From: Caryophanales bacterium
Lineage (GTDB): Bacteria > Bacillota > Bacilli > CAJFEE01
Assembly (NCBI GenBank): GCA_029256085.1
Contig: JAQSYP010000002.1
Location: forward strand, 62,001 to 126,000
Direction: 5' to 3'
Length of the DNA: 64,000 nt
This document shows, one piece after another, positions 20,931 through 62,966 of the stretch. Numbering within the stretch: position 1 is the first letter of the stretch; each line of letters opens with the position of its first letter. The notes beneath the pieces are model-generated. The model worked only from the letters and a program-made list of their open reading frames with translations, was not told the DNA's origin and searched no databases. Both the position numbers and the translations under genes were made by a program.

Positions 20931-20993
20931 GCAGAGCTGTAGTTGCACTTATGCGTTAGGAAAGTATGAACTAGTCAGAAGTTTATACTTTCC
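20931..20993 (+). repeat. Hairpin repeat family B, copy 1
   Basis: Core GCAGAGCTGTAGTTGCACTT, then a stem GGAAAGTATGAACT / AGTTTATACTTTCC. It is preceded by the hairpin CTGCCG-A-GCCTTTTAAGGC-GA-CGGCAG (about 20908-20934). Near copies lie at 24630-24684 (inverted) and 62904-62966. Confidence 0.7.
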
Positions 20994-23389: not shown

Positions 23390-24553
23390 CTAATATCGCT
23401 CGCCAATTATTTTATTTATCGTTAATCTAGTGAAAATATCAATAATCTTATTGTCTGCTTTTAATGCTTCCTCTATGTGATTGGGCCTTTTAAAATCTCG
23501 TACTTTAATAAAGTTCCCATTGTTATCCTTTTGTAACACATTAATCTCACATAAAAAACTTAAATAAAAATAAATTGGCAGGAAGTAATCTATATTCTCA
23601 AGGACTGGAAATTTATTTGGTGTTATCAAATTCAACCTTAAAACAATTCGTTCTATTTCTCTAATATTTATACTTTGACCAAAATTTAGTTGGTTCAATA
23701 CAAATAGATAAATTTTTAATTGCCACTCAACTGGACATTCCTTTATAAAATACGAAAATGGAACTGGAACGCCAACTTCAATTGGAATTAATAGTGGTGA
23801 TATTCTTTGCAAATACATTTCATTTAAAATTAATTTACTTCGCCGGATATTTATATTTTTTGGGGTTAACCTCCATTGTTCTTTATGGATAATGTGCTGT
23901 TTAGATAATTCGAAACTGTTAATATTTACGTAATTATAACTAAGCACTTGCTTTGGAGAATAGTTTCTAAACGGGAGGAATACTTCTTCACAATAAATTT
24001 TATTTTGTGATATTTGAACGATGGGGAAAACTTTCTTAAAGCCTAACATAGATTGGGTGAGTTGAATAAACGATGGTCTACTATTATAAATGTTACTAAT
24101 ATAGTTTAAAATGTAACTTGGCTTGATACGTGGTGTATGATTACTGTGGCCCAATATCCAAATCGGTGTAATATCGTCACTTCTATATAGTATAGTCCTT
24201 TTTAAAACTTCTTTTGTAGTTATATATGAACGTTGGTATTCAAAAGCAAAACGTCTATTATTAATATTAGTTAAAATATCTGCTCTTAGTTTATTGTTGA
24301 TATTTTTCTCAATATAGAATTCTAAGTTATACATGTTAATCCAGGAGCTTATAACTTCCTTTGCCTTTTTATGTTCGTTTGATTCTCCTGTGTGATTAAT
24401 ACATTTACTTGAAGACGAATGTGAAAAATGCCATGCTTTACAAGCACCTTTCTTTATAACAAGCTTTTCTCCACAGGCAGGGCAAAAAGCCTTGTTGTCT
24501 GTAATTTGCTTTACACTTACTCTATTACCGTTACTATCAAGTGCAACGAAAAT
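23390..24553 (-). CDS. coiA: Competence protein CoiA, probably started at ATT
   Basis: The frame is open from a TAG at about 24571 to the stop at 23390. The only ATG in its first third (24334) would remove the conserved N-terminal zinc finger. The N-terminal reading 'FVALDSNGNRVSV' followed by CPACGEK and 'WHFSH' matches the CoiA N-terminal zinc-finger domain. Before it are GGTGGGGGG and three ATT codons (24551-24559) but no ATG, GTG or TTG. I place the start at the third ATT (387 residues, normal length). Next comes the nuclease-like domain with 'LRADIL' and 'FAFEYQRS'. CoiA helps process incoming DNA in transformation. Confidence 0.8.
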   Translation of the reverse strand: MFVALDSNGNRVSVKQITDNKAFCPACGEKLVIKKGACKAWHFSHSSSSKCINHTGESNEHKKAKEVISSWINMYNLEFYIEKNINNKLRADILTNINNRRFAFEYQRSYITTKEVLKRTILYRSDDITPIWILGHSNHTPRIKPSYILNYISNIYNSRPSFIQLTQSMLGFKKVFPIVQISQNKIYCEEVFLPFRNYSPKQVLSYNYVNINSFELSKQHIIHKEQWRLTPKNINIRRSKLILNEMYLQRISPLLIPIEVGVPVPFSYFIKECPVEWQLKIYLFVLNQLNFGQSINIREIERIVLRLNLITPNKFPVLENIDYFLPIYFYLSFLCEINVLQKDNNGNFIKVRDFKRPNHIEEALKADNKIIDIFTRLTINKIIGERY

Positions 24554-24629
24554 AATAATCCCCCCACCTAATAAGGCTGTCTAAAAACTGTTATCGAACA
24601 ATTTATGTTACAGCCATTAATATAGCTAT

Positions 24630-24684
24630 AGAAAGTATAAACTTCTGTGTAGTTTATACTTTCATAAGTTCAACTACGGCTCAG
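24630..24684 (-). repeat. Hairpin repeat family B, copy 2
   Basis: On the minus strand GCTGAGCCGTAGTTGAACTT leads into the perfect stem GAAAGTATAAACT / AGTTTATACTTTC. It lies between cls and coiA, where it could end or stabilise the cls transcript. Confidence 0.7.
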
Positions 24685-39822: not shown

Positions 39823-39839
39823 TAGCAAAAATTATATAG

Positions 39840-41085
<1,246 letters not shown>

Positions 41086-62903: not shown

Positions 62904-62966
62904 GCAGAGCCGTAGTTGCACTTATGCGGTAAGAAATTATGAACTACGAAGAAGTTTATATTTTCT
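62904..62966 (+). repeat. Hairpin repeat family B, copy 3
   Basis: 'GCAGAGCCGTAGTTGCACTT' followed by GAAATTATGAACT and AGTTTATATTTTC, a less perfect version of the stem in copies 1 and 2. It would form part of the gerP leader RNA. Confidence 0.7.

Follow-up and report, generated by a model that had tools for sequence, protein, structure and literature searches.

The coiA locus and its candidate start codon

The window, which is the whole 64,000-nucleotide stretch of Caryophanales bacterium DNA that was analysed, carries on its minus strand a coiA gene in which, by sequence and translation, ATG, GTG and TTG are absent from the reading frame between the upstream stop codon TAG (24583-24581) and the zinc-finger motif CPACGEK. 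The features considered at this locus are as follows.

23390..24553, minus strand: coiA coding sequence, from the third ATT to the stop codon, 387 amino acids plus stop; start aligned with the ATG, TTG, GTG or ATA of relatives
24551..24553, minus strand: proposed start codon ATT, the third of three, aligned with the ATG of L003 and spaced 7 nt from the Shine-Dalgarno sequence
24551..24559, minus strand: run of three ATT codons, read from the sequence
24560..24569, minus strand: Shine-Dalgarno sequence AGGTGGGGGG, with a duplex energy of -11.8 kcal/mol with the 16S tail
24581..24583, minus strand: in-frame upstream stop codon TAG, from the sequence and translation
24332..24334, minus strand: first in-frame ATG, not accepted as the start
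24401..24523, minus strand: CoiA_N zinc finger (PF25164), 42.3 bits against a cut-off of 26.3
23939..24385, minus strand: CoiA_nuc nuclease-like domain (PF06054), 77.1 bits against a cut-off of 20.3
23462..23896, minus strand: CoiA_C (PF25166), 46.6 bits against a cut-off of 21

In the coiA frame the minus strand reads TAG ACA GCC TTA TTA GGT GGG GGG ATT ATT ATT TTC GTT GCA CTT GAT and, further downstream, TGC CCT GCC TGT GGA within the CPACGEK zinc finger. The initial annotation had reported the lack of a canonical codon before the zinc finger and the three ATT codons at 24551-24559, both of which are borne out, while the upstream TAG that it placed at about 24571 is out of frame. No canonical in-frame start lies at a distance compatible with the Shine-Dalgarno sequence. 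The ATG at 24334, which is the first canonical codon in the frame, sits past the entire CoiA_N domain, and we rejected it as a start: the zinc finger would be lost, and a ribosome-binding site is nearly absent (-3.1 kcal/mol at a spacing of 3).

In the alignment the third ATT falls opposite the ATG of L003, the coiA gene of the sole same-family relative (G001), and opposite the starts of further CoiA proteins from Bacilli. This codon lies 7 nt from AGGTGGGGGG, with the second ATT at 4 nt and the first at 0 nt. The duplex energy of -11.8 kcal/mol compares with a median of -11.4 kcal/mol for the ATG-started open reading frames of the window (n=28), and the strength of the site is just average for the window. 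The proposal that coiA has a true ATT start is well supported by the alignment, the Shine-Dalgarno spacing and the comparative evidence described below. It is very unlikely that the main control is exerted by a coding-region hairpin that masks the ribosome-binding site, rather than by the start codon. A 61-nt fold does pair TTATTAGGTG with CACTTGATAG (-15.0 kcal/mol, z -2.5), but we judged it weak because z drops to only -0.75 once the flank is enlarged, and such a hairpin would leave the absence of a canonical start unexplained.

All three Pfam domains score above their cut-offs, NCBIfam gave no match to the CoiA of the window, and the same genome encodes comEC and two comK-family matches (G000:C14:136859-137308 and 401640-402083, the second with a lower score). 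With these three domains and competence genes, coiA of the window is, as judged from its sequence and genomic setting, intact and no obvious relic. The idea that the gene has lost its start and is decaying, which the initial annotation had offered as an option, or that it yields only a shortened protein from the ATG at 24334, draws on the 5′ part without a canonical start. It is otherwise unsupported and we consider it highly improbable: the frame holds 387 open codons, the zinc finger and both other domains are intact, the Shine-Dalgarno pairing at ATG 24334 is weak (-3.1 kcal/mol), comEC and comK are intact, and relatives retain a whole CoiA behind ATA or ATT.

Start codons of coiA among Bacilli

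CoiA was found in 191 of 399 Bacilli genomes and, in a second search of a single family, in 260 of 261 genomes. The homologous coiA start was located with an N-terminus profile in the DNA of 173 genomes, with the start rows of the window and L056 set by hand and four rows with unsure starts excluded. These 173 starts comprise 61 ATG, 52 ATA, 26 ATT, 24 TTG, 8 GTG, one ATC and one TTT codon. The 79 genes with ATA, ATT or ATC are distributed over 9 genera of 3 families: a single large family accounts for 77 of them, family f38 contributes one ATA, and the window supplies the remaining ATT. Judged from named records, the large family falls within the Planococcaceae group. Records of Sporosarcina, Filibacter, Psychrobacillus, Viridibacillus, Paenisporosarcina and Rummeliibacillus have ATA or ATT coiA starts, while ATG is found in those of Lysinibacillus, most Ureibacillus and most Bhargavaea; the named records overlap the 173-genome set and add no numerical weight. 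Conservation of the start at the codon level is seen in the Planococcaceae-type family; the nearest CoiA to that of the window is about 30% identical, only one genome from the window's genus entered the comparison, and the sole same-family relative carries ATG. Searches at the genus, family and order levels yielded just the window's own genome and this relative, and no close relative emerged when named genome contigs were scanned with the window protein.

Two individual records deserve mention. A Psychrobacillus-type coiA (L151, G506) has TTT at the homologous start and a GTG inside the Shine-Dalgarno sequence, while ATC occupies that position in the sister row, L152. L220, whose record bears the name Arthrobacter beigongshangensis REN13, contains a Sporosarcina-like coiA with an ATA start; that record is apparently misnamed or mixed.

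For the Planococcaceae-type genes, a gene caller confined to ATG, GTG and TTG would be expected to choose an in-frame GTG about three codons upstream, which occupies codon -3 in 51 of the 77 large-family genes, and ATA or ATT would then be an ordinary isoleucine codon. Several observations make it very improbable that this GTG is the real start. Across all lineages the nearest upstream in-frame canonical codon, mostly GTG, overlaps the Shine-Dalgarno sequence, with a spacing of -1 in 43 of 58 genes, whereas the distance from the Shine-Dalgarno sequence to ATA or ATT is 8 nt in 62 of the 77 large-family genes, within the canonical range. The stretch from the upstream GTG to the ATA shows free residue variation (entropy 3.1 and 4.0 bits), but from the ATA codon onward an Ile-Leu-x-Ala motif is invariant in the CoiA proteins of the large family. 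In 15 of the 79 genes, the coiA of the window being one, the frame holds no canonical codon at all from the upstream stop down to the start, and in L135 a TAG stands immediately 5′ of the ATA start. At the very codon that is ATA or ATT, congeneric species carry ATG or TTG.

Codon choice at this position is also unlike that at internal isoleucines. The start column of the large family holds 51 ATA, 25 ATT and one ATC (ATA 66%, ATC 1%), whereas at eight conserved internal isoleucine columns of the same proteins ATA accounts for 5-36% and ATC for 12-43%. When isoleucine codons across the gene bodies serve as the reference, ATA is over-represented at the start (P 7e-14) and ATC under-represented (P 7e-10); these P values treat the rows as independent, so that the significance is overstated. 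The mean Shine-Dalgarno energy in the large family is -15.8 kcal/mol before ATA or ATT, compared with -14.2 kcal/mol before ATG and -15.1 kcal/mol before GTG or TTG, and the sites before ATA/ATT are slightly stronger than those before canonical starts (Mann-Whitney P 0.013 against all canonical starts). Taken together, the 15 genes lacking a canonical codon, the Shine-Dalgarno spacing, the residue conservation, the codon choice and the same-genus ATG or TTG codons indicate that ATA/ATT is the real coiA start in the Planococcaceae-type family.

As a control we scored pepF, a neighbour of coiA, at 55 loci, all 55 of which begin with a canonical codon; infC, described below, served as a second control. 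Because of the pepF result and the ATG in the same-family relative, the absence of a canonical coiA start is, on comparative grounds, not a matter of chance. We regard an assembly or base-call error in the window as unlikely. The ATT is one base from ATG, which is what the same-family relative has at that codon, and the G run adjoins the start, so that a seventh G would put a GTG at 24567-24565 in frame. However, many assemblies made independently from other species, one of them a complete genome, show the same class of codon at this position, and a GTG framed in this way would fall within the Shine-Dalgarno sequence, probably too close to initiate. Seen across most of the sampled Planococcaceae-type species, AUA and AUU starts appear to be a trait that recurs in coiA under selection, and not a sign of decay.

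Evolutionary history of the weak start

In a FastTree phylogeny of the 173 proteins the canonical or non-canonical state requires 9 changes, and the ATA or ATT state requires 15. A 50-row mixture-model tree requires 7 changes and places the window nearest to rows that all have canonical starts, although exact placements are uncertain in these trees with their long branches. A tree constrained to place the window with the large family was rejected (AU p 0.0025); by this test the ATT of the window is of separate origin, having arisen independently of the ATA/ATT starts of the large family. In the window's own family, where relative G001 starts coiA with ATG, there is no sign that a weak start was ancestral.

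Comparison with known non-canonical starts and proposed mechanism

AUU and AUA leave a third-base mismatch with the initiator tRNA, initiate inefficiently and are discriminated against by initiation factor IF3. To our knowledge, few bacterial genes have conserved non-canonical starts, and infC, which encodes IF3, is the textbook example. In the window's own genome, infC has an ATT start preceded by GGAGGTG (L072:1483-1485). The coiA genes resemble infC in having an AUU, AUA or AUC start, with its third-base mismatch, behind a good Shine-Dalgarno sequence. They differ in that infC encodes the discriminating factor itself, which gives a feedback loop, whereas coiA is a competence gene, and in that infC is uniformly ATT in the 29 of 29 readable Planococcaceae-type genomes while non-canonical coiA starts there are mostly ATA.

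In Staphylococcus aureus, cvfC1, ccpN and infC have AUU or AUA starts, and in poor medium the natural AUA/AUU starts, behind extended Shine-Dalgarno sequences, reach about 10% of what AUG gives (PMC13009471). Like coiA, ccpN (AUA) and cvfC1 (AUU) have conserved starts of this kind in Firmicutes, with extended Shine-Dalgarno sequences, but they are different genes and their starts were measured by ribosome profiling and reporters, whereas the coiA start is predicted from sequence; coiA is not mentioned in the main text of that paper (PMC13009471). Streptomyces sigR has a GTC start that is repressed by IF3 and was mis-annotated to an upstream canonical codon (PMC5472188). It shares with coiA a conserved odd start that, in sigR, keeps the protein low through IF3, and differs in its codon, in encoding a sigma factor, in belonging to Actinobacteria and in that dependence on IF3 was demonstrated, whereas for coiA it is predicted (PMC5472188). 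In Escherichia coli, pcnB, the gene for a nucleic-acid enzyme, is kept at limited expression by its AUU start (cited in PMC13009471); this start is common to pcnB and coiA, while gene and phylum differ. With the host infC and the three S. aureus genes (PMC13009471), the list of known ATT starts given in the initial annotation, infC and pcnB of E. coli, proves too short.

We consider it very probable that the intact coiA gene of the window is translated from the AUU at 24553-24551 behind its Shine-Dalgarno sequence, and that an inefficient, IF3-sensitive start caps the amount of CoiA. In this mechanism, AGGTGGGGGG, located 7 nt upstream of the AUU, would place the 30S subunit, and, provided that AUU is translated in this host, the initiator tRNA would pair with it despite the third-base mismatch, making initiation inefficient. 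By analogy with known genes, initiation at coiA would be sensitive to IF3. CoiA, a nuclease-like protein required only in DNA uptake, would as a result be held below a low ceiling. Such a ceiling is the most likely effect of the start codon, and control through changing IF3 would go a step further. The comparative evidence agrees with the earlier suggestion that a weak start would limit the output of a competence gene. A broader reading, possible but on balance doubtful, counts coiA among a few bacterial genes that selection holds under IF3-sensitive AUA/AUU initiation. On this reading the weak start arose at least two times and persisted through at least seven genera in a single family, and translation fidelity, through the level or activity of IF3, would thereby gate a step of natural transformation.

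Gene callers restricted to ATG, GTG and TTG miss conserved non-canonical starts, and in cases such as the window, where a canonical codon is lacking, automatic annotation would shorten CoiA and drop the zinc finger. A search confined to the open literature, excluding subscription papers, turned up no description of coiA starting at a non-canonical codon. The coiA genes would be an additional case, one that spans dozens of species, includes AUA and carries a clear signature at the codon level, and their starts suggest that a competence protein acting in DNA processing is limited at translation.

A dispersed repeat and other features of the window

A 33-nt palindromic repeat, with a sequence of about GAAAGTATAAACT-TCTGCGT-AGTTCATACTTTC, occurs at three places in the window.

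24631..24663, no strand assigned: copy of the dispersed repeat between cls and coiA
20960..20992 and 62933..62965: further copies of the repeat

The window's genome contains at least 60 copies, and the repeat is absent from the seven other Bacilli genomes that were compared, among them that of the same-family relative; a scan of the window gave no Rfam match to the repeat. The repeat unit is probably longer than 33 nt because the copies at 24631-24663 and 20960-20992 share extra flanking sequence. We set the palindrome 5′ of coiA aside as a regulator of the gene, given its dispersal in at least 60 copies, and it is probably unrelated to the start codon. Elsewhere in the window, an ordinary T-box leader (39836-40052) lies directly 5′ of an open reading frame that, from its sequence, resembles tryptophanyl-tRNA synthetase.
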